Under the pieces are notes generated by a model. The model searched no databases, was not told the origin of the DNA, and saw nothing but the letters and a program-made list of their open reading frames with translations. Source: Bombilactobacillus bombi (GTDB lineage Bacteria; Bacillota; Bacilli; Lactobacillales; Lactobacillaceae). Taken from it: a DNA stretch of 64,000 nt. The DNA lies in the NCBI RefSeq assembly GCF_003522965.1, contig NZ_CP031513.1:1778085-1842084 (forward strand), read 5' to 3'. Positions 18,964-46,344 of this stretch are shown one piece after another (within the stretch, counting starts at the first letter, position 1; each line of letters opens with the position of its first letter). A program made the translations under genes and the position numbers.

Positions 18964-19953
18964 CTAGTTAACTACATGATCACAAGGTTGGTCTTGAATT
19001 AGCTGAACAGCATCATCCAGACTAATATCAACCATATTTTGCACTGCAATGTTGGTGTAAAAACCAATATGAGGTGTCAAAATCACATTGTCCATTGCCC
19101 GCAATTTTTTTAGTTGTTCACTAGGTAGTTCTTTACCACGTAAATCCACATTGAAAAAGTTCTCTTCACCAGTTAAGGTATCTAAGGCTGCACCAGCAAT
19201 TTGTTGTTGTTCTAAAGCGTTAATTAAGGCAGCAGTATCAATAACTGGTCCACGACATTCATTAATAATATAAGCTGTTGGCTTCATTAAGCTCAAGGCT
19301 TTGGCGTCAATTAAATTTTTCGAGGTCTCGTTTAAGTCCACATGTAAACAAATAACATCGGATTCTTGTAAGACTTCTTCTTTGGTCTTAAAAGTTAAGA
19401 TATCATCTAAGTCATGATTAGGCTTGGTATCGTTGGCGATGACATTTGCTCCTAAAGCATGAAAGATTTGCGCAGTAGTACTGCCAATACGGCCAGCACC
19501 AATAATTCCGATTGTCAGGGAATGAAGTTCAGTGGCTTGCAATCCTTGCCAACGAAAATCTTGCTGCTTCATGCGAGCATCAAAGAGTGGCAATTTACGA
19601 ATTAAACGCATGGTATGTGTGAGTGCTAATTCAGCCACTGAATGGGGAGAATATGCAGGTACATTGCTGACTTTGAGATTATTTTCAGTAGCTAAGGGTA
19701 AGTTCACAACATCAAAACCAGCGGTTCGAGTAGTAAGCTGTTTGAAGCCCAGTTCTTGTAATTTGGGATAAACATCATCTTCAATTTGACTGCGCTGTTG
19801 TGTAACGACTCCATCAAAACCGGCTAAACGATCAACTGTATCAGAATGTAATTCCCAATCAGTGGTTTGAATTTCAATTTCAGGATGACGTGCTTGCCAT
19901 TGCTTAATTGCAGGTAATTCATCATCACGAACAGTTAATAAGATAATTCTCAT
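18964..19953 (-). CDS. D-2-hydroxyacid dehydrogenase (D-lactate dehydrogenase-like)
   Basis: 329 aa NAD-dependent enzyme reducing 2-oxoacids to D-2-hydroxyacids. NAD fold GIIGAGRIGSTTAQIF near residue 150; catalytic Arg in INECRGP, Glu in LTGEE region and His in LTPHIGFYTN match the D-LDH/hydroxyisocaproate subfamily. The ATG follows the aminotransferase stop directly and its SD (AAAGGAGGTCAT) is inside that gene's last codons, so the two are translationally coupled. With an aminotransferase it would turn amino acids into hydroxyacids such as phenyllactate or hydroxyphenyllactate; the substrate is inferred. Confidence 0.92.
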   Translation of the reverse strand: MRIILLTVRDDELPAIKQWQARHPEIEIQTTDWELHSDTVDRLAGFDGVVTQQRSQIEDDVYPKLQELGFKQLTTRTAGFDVVNLPLATENNLKVSNVPAYSPHSVAELALTHTMRLIRKLPLFDARMKQQDFRWQGLQATELHSLTIGIIGAGRIGSTTAQIFHALGANVIANDTKPNHDLDDILTFKTKEEVLQESDVICLHVDLNETSKNLIDAKALSLMKPTAYIINECRGPVIDTAALINALEQQQIAGAALDTLTGEENFFNVDLRGKELPSEQLKKLRAMDNVILTPHIGFYTNIAVQNMVDISLDDAVQLIQDQPCDHVVN

Positions 19954-21138
19954 TTAATGACCTCCTTTTTGTTGGCGAATATTTTGGACGTATGCTTGCA
20001 TTAATTGCATTCCCCGTTGAATCTCTTCCATGCTGGTAGCATAGCTTAATCTTAAATAACCACTGCCACCAGGTCCAAAGTATGATCCTGGGACTGCTGC
20101 CACTGGACCGTTTTGGGCTAAATCACGAGCAAAACGTTCATCATCTTGATCTAAATCTTCAGGAATTTGTGCAAAAATATAGAAAGCACCCCCTGGAGTT
20201 GCACACTTAAAGCCCATTTGCTCCATTTGTTCTACAATGTAATCACGGCGTTTTTGATATTGGGCGCGCATTGGTAATGCATCATCTATCCCATTTTTGA
20301 AAGCTTCTTCAGCTGCATCTTGAGTGACAGTGGCAGCACTTGTAATCGTGAATTGGTGAATTTTACCAAGCTCGTCTGTGATGGCTTGTGGAGCACACAT
20401 TAAACCAATTCTCCAACCAGTCATAGCATGCGATTTTGACACACCAGTAATTAGAATTACTTGATCTTTGAGGCTCTTGGATAAGCTAGCGTGAGGTCCG
20501 TTGTAATTTAATTCGCTATAAATTTCGTCACAAAGAACGAAAATTGGTTGATCTCTTAAAACATCACCTAAAGCATCTAATTCACTTTGGGAATAAGTAA
20601 CACCTGTAGGATTACTTGGATAATTTAAGATGACTAAGCGTACACCTTCGCCAGCTTTCTCGATGGTGTCTTGCAGCATTTGGGGAGTCAACTTAAAGCC
20701 GTTGCTGGAAGTATCAACTAAAATAGGTTCACCGCCTGCCAAGACAGTATCTGCAATGTATAACGGGAATGTTGGTGTCGGAATAATAACTTTATCACCA
20801 GGGTTTAAAACAGACATGACAGCAGTATAAATTCCTTCAGTTGCTCCTTCAGTCACAATGACTTCATCAGCAGTATAATGCTGGTCATATTTTTGAGCTA
20901 AGAAGTTAGCCGCTGCTTGGCGTAAACCGGCAGTCCCATTGCTAGGAGCATAGTGAGAATGGTTGGCTTGAATACTAGCGATGGCAGCTTCTTTGATATG
21001 TTCGGGAGTATTGAAGTCGGGTTCGCCTAAGGTGAAGTTAACGATGTTTGGAATTTGATTAGCGAATGTCGAAAAAGCTAAAATAGCTGACGGCTTCACT
21101 TGACTAAGTTGACGATTGAGATATTGATTCATTTGCAT
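19954..21138 (-). CDS. Class I/II aminotransferase, probably aromatic
   Basis: About 394 aa PLP enzyme. AGGAAAGG touches the first ATG (21147), so ATG 21138 is the likelier start. Family I gamma signs are NFTLGEPDFNTPEHI, NYPSNPTGVTY, the PLP-Lys in TGVSKSHAMTGWRIG (about residue 235) and the C-terminal Arg in YLRLSYA. The substrate is not readable from motifs alone, but the 19-residue leader peptide upstream is loaded with Tyr and Phe codons, which suggests an aromatic aminotransferase. First gene of an operon with the D-hydroxyacid dehydrogenase. Confidence 0.9.
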   Translation of the reverse strand: MQMNQYLNRQLSQVKPSAILAFSTFANQIPNIVNFTLGEPDFNTPEHIKEAAIASIQANHSHYAPSNGTAGLRQAAANFLAQKYDQHYTADEVIVTEGATEGIYTAVMSVLNPGDKVIIPTPTFPLYIADTVLAGGEPILVDTSSNGFKLTPQMLQDTIEKAGEGVRLVILNYPSNPTGVTYSQSELDALGDVLRDQPIFVLCDEIYSELNYNGPHASLSKSLKDQVILITGVSKSHAMTGWRIGLMCAPQAITDELGKIHQFTITSAATVTQDAAEEAFKNGIDDALPMRAQYQKRRDYIVEQMEQMGFKCATPGGAFYIFAQIPEDLDQDDERFARDLAQNGPVAAVPGSYFGPGGSGYLRLSYATSMEEIQRGMQLMQAYVQNIRQQKGGH

Positions 21139-21160
21139 GATATTCATCCTTTCCTAAATA

Positions 21161-21427
21161 AAAAGACCCAACAGATTAATTGTGAAAATCTGTTGGGTCT
21201 TGGCCAAATTAGTTTATTAGGTGACCCATCAGATTTTCTAAAACCTGCTAGGTCGAATTCGCTCAAGTAAATAAGCTTTCGTTCCTACAGGTGTCAAACA
21301 CTTGTTAGCGTGTTTGCACCCATAGATTCAGAGTACAAACACTATCTAAAGAAACGAAAGTAATAATAGGCATTCAATTGTCGAATTTGAAGTTTTAACA
21401 TTATCTGGGCTCCTGACTTATTGAATA
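21161..21427 (-). promoter_or_regulatory. Transcription attenuator (leader RNA with terminator/antiterminator)
   Basis: Minus-strand leader of about 290 nt. In RNA order: leader-peptide codons containing CUUUCGUU (21360-21353); its complement AACGAAAG (21283-21276) next to CCUGUAGG (21291-21284); segment 1 GACCUAGCAGGUUUU (21254-21240); segment 2 AAAAUCUGAUGGGUC (21237-21223); segment 3 GACCCAACAGAUU and segment 4 AAUCUGUUGGGUC, forming a 15-bp terminator stem (21201-21163) followed by T. Segment 2 can pair with 1 (14 of 15) or with 3 (14 of 15), while 3 with 4 terminates. CCUGUAGG can also pair with CCUAGCAGG of segment 1. These are the exclusive pairings of a ribosome-controlled attenuator. 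Confidence 0.85.
21342..21401 (-). CDS. Aromatic leader peptide
   Basis: 19-codon ORF: MLKLQIRQLNAYYYFRFFR then TAG. The last eight codons contain three Tyr and three Phe. AGGAG is eight bases before the ATG, and the ORF begins about 26 bases after the predicted transcription start. Its Tyr/Phe/Arg codons overlap the CUUUCGUU strand of the first leader helix, so ribosome stalling there would alter the fold. Composition and position match leader peptides of phe/tyr attenuators. Confidence 0.82.
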   Translation of the reverse strand: MLKLQIRQLNAYYYFRFFR

Positions 21428-21432
21428 GTTAT

Positions 21433-21462
21433 AATCTAATCCAACTACAGGGTAAATGTCAA
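21433..21462 (-). promoter_or_regulatory. Promoter of the aminotransferase operon
   Basis: On the minus strand: -35 TTGACA, 18-bp spacer, -10 TAGATT, placing the start near 21427. Confidence 0.65.
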
Positions 21463-21642: not shown

Positions 21643-21675
21643 ACAAATTACAAATTAAACAAAGGAATGATGCTT

Positions 21676-23076
21676 GTGTCAATCTGGCAGAAAATTACAC
21701 AAAAAGCCGATGTTCAACAATATTTGCAAGAAGACGTGCAATTCGAAAAAACACTGCGCGCGAAAGATTTGATGGCTCTGGGGATTGGGGCAGTAATTGG
21801 AACGGGAATCTTTATCTTGCCCGGCACAGTAGCTGCGACTGTCAGTGGTCCGGGAGTTATCTTAAGCTTTTTAATCGCAGCAATTGTGTGCGCGACTGCT
21901 GCAATGTGTTATGCAGAATTTGCGTCTGCTTTACCCGTGGCGGGGAGTGCGTATTCTTATGGAAATATTATCTTCGGTCAATTGATTGGTTGGATTATTG
22001 GCTGGGCGCTTATCTTAGAGTATATGCTGGCAGTAGCGACAGTATCAGTGGGATTTTCTGCTTATTTTAGTGCCTTTTTGAAGGGATTTGGGATTAGTTT
22101 ACCGCAAGCAATTTCTGGTCCACTGAATTTACATCAACATACGTATATTAATTTAGTAGCAGTTGTAGTGGTTTTGTTAATTTCAGCCATGTTATCACGT
22201 GGAATGCAAACCTCTATGAAAATTAATGACTGGATGGTAGTTATTAAGATTGTAATTATTGCAATTTTTATTGCAGTGGGGATTTTTTATGTTAAACCCA
22301 AGAACTGGTCGCCATTTATGCCTTTCGGCACTTCTGGAGTATTAACGGGAGCTTCGACAGTGTTCTTCGCTTATCTTGGCTTTGATGCTGTTTCTTCTTC
22401 AGCGCCGGAAGTGAAAAATCCGCAACGCAATCTGCCAATTGGAATTATTGGGACATTGATTATTGCGACGATTCTTTACATGGCTGTAGCTACAGTGTTA
22501 ACAGGGATGGTACCTTATACCAAGTTAAATGTAGCCGATCCTGTCGCTTTTGCCTTGCAGTTTTTCCACTTAAATACAGTTGCGGGTATTATTTCCTTAG
22601 GGGCTATGGCCGGGATGTTCACGATGATGGTTACCATGATTTATAGTAGTTCGCGCTTGGTCTATGCAATTGGGCGTGACGGCTTATTACCTAAGTTTTT
22701 AGGTAGCATCAATCAAAAGCACCTACCTAATAATAGTTTGGTAATTGTAACAATCATTATTGCTATTATGGGAGGATTTATTAATCTTAACCAATTAGCG
22801 GAATTAGTTAATATTGGGACTTTAATCGCATTTGCGTTTGTTTCTATTGGAGTTGTACCATTGCGTAAACGCCAGGATATTAAGAATGATGGTTTCAAAG
22901 TACCATTTTATCCAGTTTTGCCAATTATTTCGTTGATTTTGTGTCTGTATTTGATGACCAAATTAAAATTGGTAACTTGGATTGCATCAGCTATTTGGTT
23001 CACTATCGGGATTATTATTTATTTGACTTATAGTATTCATCATAGCAACTTAAATCAAAAGAAAAAAAGTGAATGA
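21676..23076 (+). CDS. APC-family amino acid permease
   Basis: About 466 aa, around 12 membrane segments. AAAGGA abuts the ATG at 21667, so GTG at 21676 is better spaced. The first helix carries the APC signature GIGAVIGTGIFILPG, and FAYLGFDAVSSSAPEVKNPQRNLPIGI is typical of the cationic amino acid transporter (YfnA-like) subgroup. It is divergent from the aminotransferase operon with its own promoter, suggesting uptake of the amino acid handled there; specificity is unproven. Confidence 0.9.
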   Translation: MSIWQKITQKADVQQYLQEDVQFEKTLRAKDLMALGIGAVIGTGIFILPGTVAATVSGPGVILSFLIAAIVCATAAMCYAEFASALPVAGSAYSYGNIIFGQLIGWIIGWALILEYMLAVATVSVGFSAYFSAFLKGFGISLPQAISGPLNLHQHTYINLVAVVVVLLISAMLSRGMQTSMKINDWMVVIKIVIIAIFIAVGIFYVKPKNWSPFMPFGTSGVLTGASTVFFAYLGFDAVSSSAPEVKNPQRNLPIGIIGTLIIATILYMAVATVLTGMVPYTKLNVADPVAFALQFFHLNTVAGIISLGAMAGMFTMMVTMIYSSSRLVYAIGRDGLLPKFLGSINQKHLPNNSLVIVTIIIAIMGGFINLNQLAELVNIGTLIAFAFVSIGVVPLRKRQDIKNDGFKVPFYPVLPIISLILCLYLMTKLKLVTWIASAIWFTIGIIIYLTYSIHHSNLNQKKKSE

Positions 23077-46103: not shown

Positions 46104-46159
46104 TCTTGATAATAATATACAAACTGATATGACTATGGTACAATGACAACAATAAGATA

Positions 46160-46291
46160 ACTTCTTCGGGGTCGGGTGTAATTCCCAATCGGCGGTAACA
46201 AGCTTTAGTTTGAAGTCCGCGACCTGCCAATGGCAGTTGATCTAGTGCAAATCTAGAACCGACAGTTAAAGTCTGGATGAAAGAAGAAGTT
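46160..46291 (+). ncRNA. FMN riboswitch (RFN element)
   Basis: Conserved RFN blocks in order: CTTCGGGGTCGGGTG, AATTCCCAATCGGCGGTAA, AAGTCCGCGACC, TGCAAATCTAGAACCGACAGTT, AAGTCTGGATGAAAGAAGAAG. P1 arms are CTTCTTC and GAAGAAG. It controls the downstream riboflavin transporter operon, lowering expression when FMN is plentiful. Confidence 0.96.
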
Positions 46292-46344
46292 TCTTCAACT
46301 TAAGGTTTTTTATTGTGGTTATTTGTTGAAGATTCTTCATTAGT

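Follow-up and report, generated by a model that had tools for sequence, protein, structure and literature searches.

A predicted Phe/Tyr leader-peptide attenuator before an aminotransferase/D-2-hydroxyacid dehydrogenase operon of Bombilactobacillus bombi and its putative relatives in Lactobacillales

In Bombilactobacillus bombi, an aminotransferase gene and a D-2-hydroxyacid dehydrogenase gene lie behind a long leader RNA, which raises the question of what signal this RNA reads and how the signal reaches the genes. The window, by which we mean the whole stretch of DNA analysed (64,000 nucleotides, C1:1778085-1842084 of genome G000, 1.84 Mb in total), carries the locus on its minus strand (Table 1), and a preliminary description of the sequence had read it as a ribosome-stalling attenuator. 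Comparison and modelling support this reading. The leader combines a Tyr/Phe-rich peptide of 19 residues with conserved, mutually exclusive hairpins and a terminator-like hairpin, and is quite probably a ribosome-mediated attenuator, predicted to let the genes be read when charged tRNA-Tyr or tRNA-Phe is scarce.

Table 1. Leader segments and genes of the operon in window coordinates
Feature	Position	Strand	Details
Promoter-like site	21433..21462	-	TTGACA (21462-21457), 18-nt spacer, TAGATT; pattern scan
Shine-Dalgarno sequence of leader ORF	21410..21414	-	AGGAG; sequence
Leader ORF	21342..21401	-	MLKLQIRQLNAYYYFRFFR, then stop; 19 codons, ATG 21401; sequence and relatives
ORF arm	21351..21360	-	CUUUCGUUUC, codons Y-F-R-F; partner is segment 2 in untranslated RNA
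Segment 0	21331..21342	-	GUGUUUGUACUC; begins inside stop codon
Segment 1	21310..21321	-	GGGUGCAAACAC; partner 0 or 2'
Segment 2'	21290..21301	-	GUGUUUGACACC; partner 1
Segment 2	21275..21291	-	CCUGUAGG captures 3a; GGAACGAAAGC is partner of ORF arm
Segment 3a	21240..21254	-	GACCUAGCAGGUUUU
Segment 3b	21223..21238	-	GAAAAUCUGAUGGGUC; partner 3a or 4
Segment 4	21184..21201	-	5' arm of terminator-like hairpin
Segment 5 and U run	21160..21177	-	3' arm of terminator-like hairpin
Class I/II aminotransferase	19954..21147	-	likely start 21138
D-2-hydroxyacid dehydrogenase	18964..19953	-	

The minus-strand promoter, the Shine-Dalgarno sequence and the Tyr/Phe-rich ORF named in that description are all found on direct reading of the sequence, and TTGACA is also visible 5' of the leaders of relatives. 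Six of the last eight codons specify Tyr or Phe (aromatic codons at 21368-21348), and conserved QLN codons stand at 21380-21372. Among the 59 short ATG ORFs of the window that follow a Shine-Dalgarno sequence, this leader is the only one with at least six F/Y/W in eight codons, and only 2 of 1932 short ORFs in 20 mononucleotide-shuffled windows reach the same level, so that its aromatic content exceeds chance. The RNA is unusually stable (-83.7 kcal/mol for 21150-21432, z -6.85; 0 of 200 shuffles as stable), and the proposed 15-bp intrinsic terminator is present as a terminator-like hairpin of 15 pairs (-22.6 kcal/mol) with UUUUU at 21164-21160. The pattern scan for terminators, with a loop limit of 8 bases, listed none; the loop of the leader hairpin has 9. 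The aminotransferase start, first placed at 21147, is moved to ATG 21138, which is the probable one because relatives begin MQMNQY and 21154-21147 looks like a Shine-Dalgarno sequence. A search of a plasmid collection gave no match.

A T-box or a known riboswitch at this place would be the conventional alternative, and the preliminary description had named such a match as grounds for giving up its reading. At the leader, no T-box or riboswitch reaches its Rfam gathering score (two matches do so in the whole window), and the nine Rfam matches at E <=5 include neither a T-box nor an established amino-acid riboswitch. Only two of the nine are informative, namely RF02863 ("Enterococcus sRNA 2410"; 28.6 bits over the full model length, E 0.0058, below the gathering score of 61) and RF04312 (the trpB motif; 25.9 bits, below the gathering score of 59). 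Elsewhere in the window, an FMN riboswitch (RF00050) lies at 46158-46292 on the plus strand (117.1 bits).

The window leader contains the complementary stretches CUUUCGUU / AACGAAAG and CCUGUAGG / CCUAGCAGG. The exclusive pairings 1:2, 2:3 and 3:4 described earlier are present, but the relay had been drawn too short: two conserved arms, segment 0 at the stop codon (21342-21331) and segment 1 behind it (21321-21310), were overlooked. With them, the window RNA can form six alternating helices, 0:1, 1:2, 2:3a, 3a:3b, 3b:4 and 4:5, with computed energies of -13.3 kcal/mol for 3a:3b and -16.6 kcal/mol for 3b:4. A further arm lies within the ORF itself. Its helix has six pairs, with 100% of cells paired in 24 aminotransferase leaders, in which codon changes among CGT, TGG and TAT (Arg, Trp and Tyr) are accompanied by compensating changes downstream.

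In the proposed mechanism, a shortage of Tyr or Phe would stall the ribosome on the codons UAU UAU UAC UUU CGU UUC UUU, where it would cover the ORF arm and leave segment 0 free. Helix 0:1 would then form, segment 2 would capture 3a, 3b would pair with 4, the terminator 4:5 would not arise and the genes would be read. A ribosome that has reached the stop codon would cover segment 0, upon which 1:2' would form and lock segment 2, 3a:3b and then 4:5 would follow, and transcription would end. In the absence of translation, the ORF arm itself could lock segment 2.

The leader ORF is kept in relatives. It precedes the aminotransferase orthologue in all six Bombilactobacillus genomes that have the operon (the seventh genome has neither gene nor leader), and it stands before the aminotransferase in ten named genera besides Bombilactobacillus. 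A leader was accepted in 14 of 30 loci of a first homologue set, in which the script matches at L022 and L027 were discounted as misplaced and many of the remaining loci are paralogues; L009 and L011 (54-55% identity) have no leader, and L096 (54% identity) has neither leader nor dehydrogenase. Among closer loci of the family, 20 of 22 have it (L033 by eye, with a weaker Shine-Dalgarno sequence), the other two being L048, which lacks it, and L052, which holds only 110 upstream bases. In 80 named loci, the script found 19 leaders and inspection by eye added Weissella L085 and Periweissella L130, giving 21 of 80; the script matches come from Bombilactobacillus, Weissella, Liquorilactobacillus, Sporolactobacillus, Lactiplantibacillus, Agrilactobacillus, Secundilactobacillus, Lentilactobacillus, Loigolactobacillus, Pediococcus and one uncultured Lactobacillus. 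The leader of L130, QLNNAPLLFWYHAD, has F-W-Y as its only aromatics. The leader also goes with the gene pair: the dehydrogenase directly follows the aminotransferase in 23 of the 80 named loci, 20 with a leader and 3 in Bifidobacterium, so that all 20 pairs outside Bifidobacterium have one (L085 and L130 by eye). In L107, the leader is present and the second gene is other than a dehydrogenase.

In Bifidobacterium (L146, L152 and L156, in each case upstream of 4001), the same gene pair follows a different short ORF with a Shine-Dalgarno sequence, MQGTRFTYWWHGFDL, which is perhaps an independent aromatic leader.

The weak match to RF02863 leads to a much larger set of leaders. This family matches 157 of 295 genomes of Lactobacillales at E <=0.001, 71 of them above the cut-off. 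All 48 loci examined, 30 supplied by the order-wide search and 18 hand-picked, encode a Phe/Tyr leader, with YFSYFR in 40. The first ORF 3' of these leaders is a TrpX-type substrate-binding gene in 35, a shikimate gene (aroE or DAHP synthase) in 12 and another amino-acid ABC gene in 1; these calls were made by eye and representatives were tested with NCBIfam or Pfam, the TrpX model giving 313 and 324 bits and so falling short of its cut-off of 390. Among 250 genomes drawn from the class as a whole, RF02863 matches 22, 5 of which are outside the order, and three such loci that were read have MLLTKQQQHNRFYFSYF before an apparent DAHP synthase (by eye).

The reverse comparison used covariance model R1, built from the 24 aminotransferase leaders only, which matches 140 of 397 genomes of the family at E <=0.01. 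In ten cases compared by eye, R1 matches fall on RF02863 places: G038 (two, one at E 0.02), G039, G044 (two), G046, G047, G048 and G051 (two). It misses the RF02863 place of G040 and one of the two in G046. These cross-matches suggest that RF02863 looks like the same device as the window leader. The first genes of 20 further, hand-picked R1 loci (identified by model for representatives and by eye otherwise) are TrpX-type in 12, the dehydrogenase alone in 2, an MFS protein followed by chorismate synthase in 2, and, in one locus each, chorismate synthase, transketolase followed by aroE, a PTS_EIIC_2 membrane protein and an amino-acid permease. The aromatic run is Phe-only in 9 of the 12 transporter leaders (FAFSFFFR and similar). 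In the transketolase-aroE locus (L228), whose leader is QLNSAYYYFWFFS, the supply of erythrose-4-phosphate seems to be placed under aromatic control.

Two of the R1-associated genes encode membrane proteins of other kinds. The PTS_EIIC_2-type protein at L233:587-1624 (PF13303 by model) stands behind an R1-type leader, and look-alikes were seen by eye in L279 (about 1150-1600, weak R1 match at E 0.07) and as the second gene after the leader and aminotransferase of L107; this protein is a candidate transporter of an aromatic compound. The divergent BcaP-like amino-acid permease that adjoins the aminotransferase operon of the window (21667-23076, plus strand) has a homologue in another genus (L235:562-1956), immediately in front of which lies an R1 match (E 3.9e-4) whose Phe leader is weak.

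RF02863 is typed by Rfam as "Gene; sRNA", and available text of the paper from which sRNA_2410 originates reports two sRNA_2410 transcripts on E. faecium northern blots (PMC5593968), which would suit a small RNA acting in trans. An attenuator also yields two transcript lengths, however, and all 48 loci examined have a same-strand ORF downstream and a terminator-like hairpin, which makes a trans-acting small RNA extremely improbable.

The attenuator mechanism was modelled on both groups of leaders by stepwise folding of the RNA as far as 3a under a 29-base ribosome mask, scoring the capture of 3a by upstream RNA; this prefix separated the ribosome positions, whereas longer prefixes folded at equilibrium, reaching the end of segment 4 or of 3b, did not. 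Of 94 leaders, 90 gave an ORF and a terminator (L044, L098, L099 and L101 gave no terminator), and the exclusion of L041 and L043, in which the wrong terminator had been picked, left 88 (48 RF02863-type and 40 aminotransferase leaders); L039, which has a leader, L130 and named loci that repeat other loci were outside the set. Mean capture in the RF02863-type leaders was 0.48 with the ribosome at aromatic codons, 0.31 at the stop codon and 0.14 without ribosome, and the corresponding values for the aminotransferase leaders were 0.37, 0.21 and 0.23. The best aromatic position exceeded both the stop codon and the ribosome-free state by >0.3 in 32 of 48 RF02863-type leaders vs 14 of 240 shuffles, and in 7 of 40 aminotransferase leaders vs 2 of 200 shuffles, counts that come from related and thus not independent sequences. 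Mean capture was higher at aromatic codons than at the stop in 38 of 48 and 31 of 40 leaders, respectively. The stop exceeded the aromatic codons by >0.1 in 4 leaders of each group, the ribosome-free state did so in 3 aminotransferase leaders and in no RF02863-type leader, and 7 of the 88 (L016, L036, L092, L094, L097, L100 and L170) had capture <0.1 at every aromatic codon. For the window leader, P(2:3a) is 0.48-0.68 when the A site holds an aromatic codon, 0.13 at the stop and 0.57 without ribosome, so that its untranslated state is not clearly off.

Covariation was counted for the stalled (starved) and the read-through-to-stop (fed) states, in MAFFT alignments fitted to neither state and with pairs chosen from those same alignments, a choice that favours the unslid versions over the slid ones. 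In the RF02863-type alignment (n=48, 46 distinct), the starved state is 95.3% paired with 10 double-changed pairs (<=7 when slid) and a score of 0.224 vs 0.044-0.094 slid, and the fed state is 91.8% paired with 17 double-changed pairs (<=12 when slid) and 0.321 vs 0.046-0.087 slid. In the Trp class described below (n=31), the states are 88.2% and 93.8% paired, with scores of 0.191 and 0.277 vs <=0.134 slid. The 24 aminotransferase leaders give 88.4% and 0.207 vs <=0.104 slid for the fed state, and 88.1% and 0.151 vs <=0.125 slid for the starved state, in which 3 double-change pairs, a number reached by 199 of 500 shuffles, compare with a shuffle value of 2.3, and pair types are fewer than in shuffles; 3a:3b is 77% paired. 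Alignment A3 is uncounted because L001-L003 are shifted by one base in it, and in A4 part of their 1:2' and 2:3a cells still enter the count as unpaired. Taken together, both exclusive states appear from these alignments to covary in the RF02863 and RF04312 classes, and less clearly so in the aminotransferase leaders, where the signal is weaker for 2:3a.

RF04312 was found in 88 of 148 genomes, 35 of them above the cut-off. At 30 loci supplied by the genome search rather than hand-picked, a Trp-containing leader lies just 5' of the motif in every case, as an ORF with a Shine-Dalgarno sequence and W-x-x-W in 27 (for example QLNNAWQSWRRSLYR) and with a single Trp (WQSR) in the other 3. RF04312 thus looks like the Trp counterpart of the Phe/Tyr leaders. 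The genome of the window has at least three leaders of this kind. At C1:876341, the leader MTCCLLKKVYYFDFAYFK, closed by a stop, precedes an MFS-chorismate mutase fusion, aroC, an aroA-like gene and tyrA, and a similar leader precedes the same aro operon in the two other species looked at (G002 and G005). At the RF04312 match C1:1150210-1150309, the leader MINSNVQLNARWQSR, also closed by a stop, precedes an ABC transporter. Since R1 finds only the window copy in this genome, it misses diverged members, and more leaders are possible.

Of 137 distinct leaders, 100 contain the tripeptide [QKH][LVM]N, in the Phe/Tyr and Trp classes alike; in 98 of these 100, it precedes the first aromatic residue with one to three residues in between, and the Trp class holds just one or two Trp codons; these features would suit a TnaC-like device, in which a QLN-aromatic nascent peptide arrests in the tunnel on free Phe, Tyr or Trp and the arrest sets the relay. 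The tripeptide is missing in 37 of the 137 leaders, however, and its codons are biased (Asn AAT in 99 of 100, Leu YTG in 81 of 100), which means that the constraint may be on the RNA as well as, or instead of, on the peptide. QLN lies outside every helix defined here. Multiple aromatic codons fit starvation sensing, and downstream genes for uptake and biosynthesis fit induction at starvation, so that nascent-peptide arrest is rather unlikely.

The forms of the relay differ in length. Short aminotransferase leaders (e.g. L107, L099 and L101, by eye) are without segments 0 and 1 and have segment 2 at the stop codon, and the relay of the Trp class consists of 0:1, 1:2, 2:4 and 4:5, with segment 2 pairing directly with 4. 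The number of helices is four or six, and even in all forms examined; because the arms differ in pairs, a stalled ribosome would, on this model, end in read-through in all three forms. This parity, which we infer from the anatomy, is the best single argument for the mechanism. In the spacer between segments 2 and 3a of the RF02863-type leaders, the two positions of a UU (alignment A2, columns 121-122) are conserved in 45 and 47 of 48 and have no known partner.

The remaining alternative is direct binding of an aromatic amino acid or precursor by a riboswitch, with an incidental leader ORF. Such direct reading has been proposed in print for S. agalactiae gbs2033 and gbs1262, two 5'UTR elements conserved in Lactobacillales and presented, in available text, as novel riboswitches whose ligands would be aromatic amino acids or their precursors (PMC4448216), and for the trpB motif it was raised as speculation in excerpts of a paper that lists this motif as a strong riboswitch candidate and whose authors did not rule out a classic attenuator (PMC11109978). 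The complex conserved structure, the presence of both terminator and antiterminator and the conserved UU outside the arms would all suit a riboswitch. Against it, a short Phe/Tyr or Trp ORF occupies the same place in all 48 RF02863-type and 30 trpB-motif loci, the stop codon abuts segment 0 (whose start lies <=1 base from the stop-codon end in 44 of 48 RF02863-type leaders, by pattern), and one conserved arm of the pairing falls within the codons and varies as they do. We regard direct ligand binding as quite improbable, more so than peptide arrest. One of the two S. agalactiae elements also lies before the aroFBC-tyrA operon of E. faecium, and RNA-seq gave short and long transcripts from one start (PMC4448216, as far as its available text goes); the element with the two transcripts probably belongs to the attenuator family, and gbs2033 itself would, judging by the genes around it (ABC transporter; aro operon in E. 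faecium), be a member of RF02863.

What would an attenuator of this sign be good for in the window? Among proteins of known structure, those closest in sequence to the two enzymes are a "putative amino acid aminotransferase" (4my5) and a D-lactate dehydrogenase (4xkj), respectively, and an aromatic substrate specificity is presumed. TyrA is present in G000, G002 and G005, where the aminotransferase could serve as the last step to Tyr. No chorismate synthase was found in G001 and G006, both of which have the leader and the gene pair; our guess is that aromatic keto or D-hydroxy acids are taken up there and turned back into amino acids. The earlier proposal that the operon is on at starvation agrees with the like leaders before predicted aromatic uptake and shikimate genes, including the aro operon of G000. 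The aro, transporter and transketolase targets fit such induction, and the aminotransferase/dehydrogenase pair fits it less clearly.

A first idea, that the genus cannot make Phe, has lost ground: PF00800 is absent at E <=0.001 in 7 of 7 genomes, yet in G000 an ORF next to aroC resembles a divergent PDT (14.9 bits, cut-off 25.2). Models also identify the MFS-chorismate mutase fusion, aroC and tyrA in this genome, and ORFs resembling aroA and aroK were recognised by eye. In the bee gut, a Lactobacillus apis strain bearing an aromatic aminotransferase has been tied to indole derivatives and host memory, and such genes are noted in Bombilactobacillus in available text of the same report, which does not imply identity with the window gene (PMC9018956).

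To conclude, it is moderately probable that RF02863 (the "sRNA"), RF04312 and gbs2033/gbs1262 (the "riboswitch") and the window leader form one family of aromatic leader-peptide attenuators, which would extend over Lactobacillales and some other Bacilli, comprise Phe/Tyr and Trp classes, and work like a row of dominoes, through four or six alternating helices, with their even number setting the sign of the response. In auxotrophic branches, it would drive the aminotransferase/D-hydroxyacid dehydrogenase pair that returns aromatic hydroxy and keto acids to Phe and Tyr. If this is true, lactic acid bacteria, a group thought to rely mostly on T-boxes, would sense aromatic amino acids through translation, two Rfam families would be reassigned, as would a published riboswitch candidate, and Phe/Tyr rather than Trp would be suggested as signal or cargo of many "TrpX"-like transporters. 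An operon with a possible part in the formation or the use of aromatic lactates, which are antifungal or host-signalling compounds, would also be tied to amino-acid supply. No description of these leaders as attenuating peptides was found in the CC-licensed PMC literature; a study of aromatic regulation in low-GC Gram-positives (Panina 2003) reportedly described a previously unrecognised signal at genes for DAHP synthase, and part of the present finding may therefore be older knowledge.

Ribosome-mediated attenuation by leader peptides is established for trp, pheA and his of E. coli, and the trp attenuator works with three alternating helices. The leaders described here share with these systems an ORF with cognate codons, a stop codon beside the first arm, alternating hairpins, an intrinsic terminator and genes for the same amino acid. 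In contrast to E. coli trp, they have six helices in the long Phe/Tyr form and four in the short forms and the Trp class, and their hosts are low-GC Gram-positives. RF04312 resembles the window leader in its often QLN-type peptide, its 0:1 and 1:2 arms and its terminator, and differs in its Trp codons (W-x-x-W or a single WQSR) and its four-helix relay. RF02863 and gbs2033 were published as an sRNA or a riboswitch, and available text of these papers makes no mention of a leader peptide (PMC5593968; PMC4448216). According to excerpts of a 2010 account, no leader peptide had been shown outside Proteobacteria and Actinobacteria, ermC aside, and His leaders had been predicted in bacilli (PMC2965389). 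Finally, uORFC-13-1, a Phe uORF before aroF known from 24 Acholeplasma and environmental sequences, is alike by the description in available text, since its uORF too has one or more Phe codons and stands, together with a terminator, ahead of a shikimate gene (PMC8632094).
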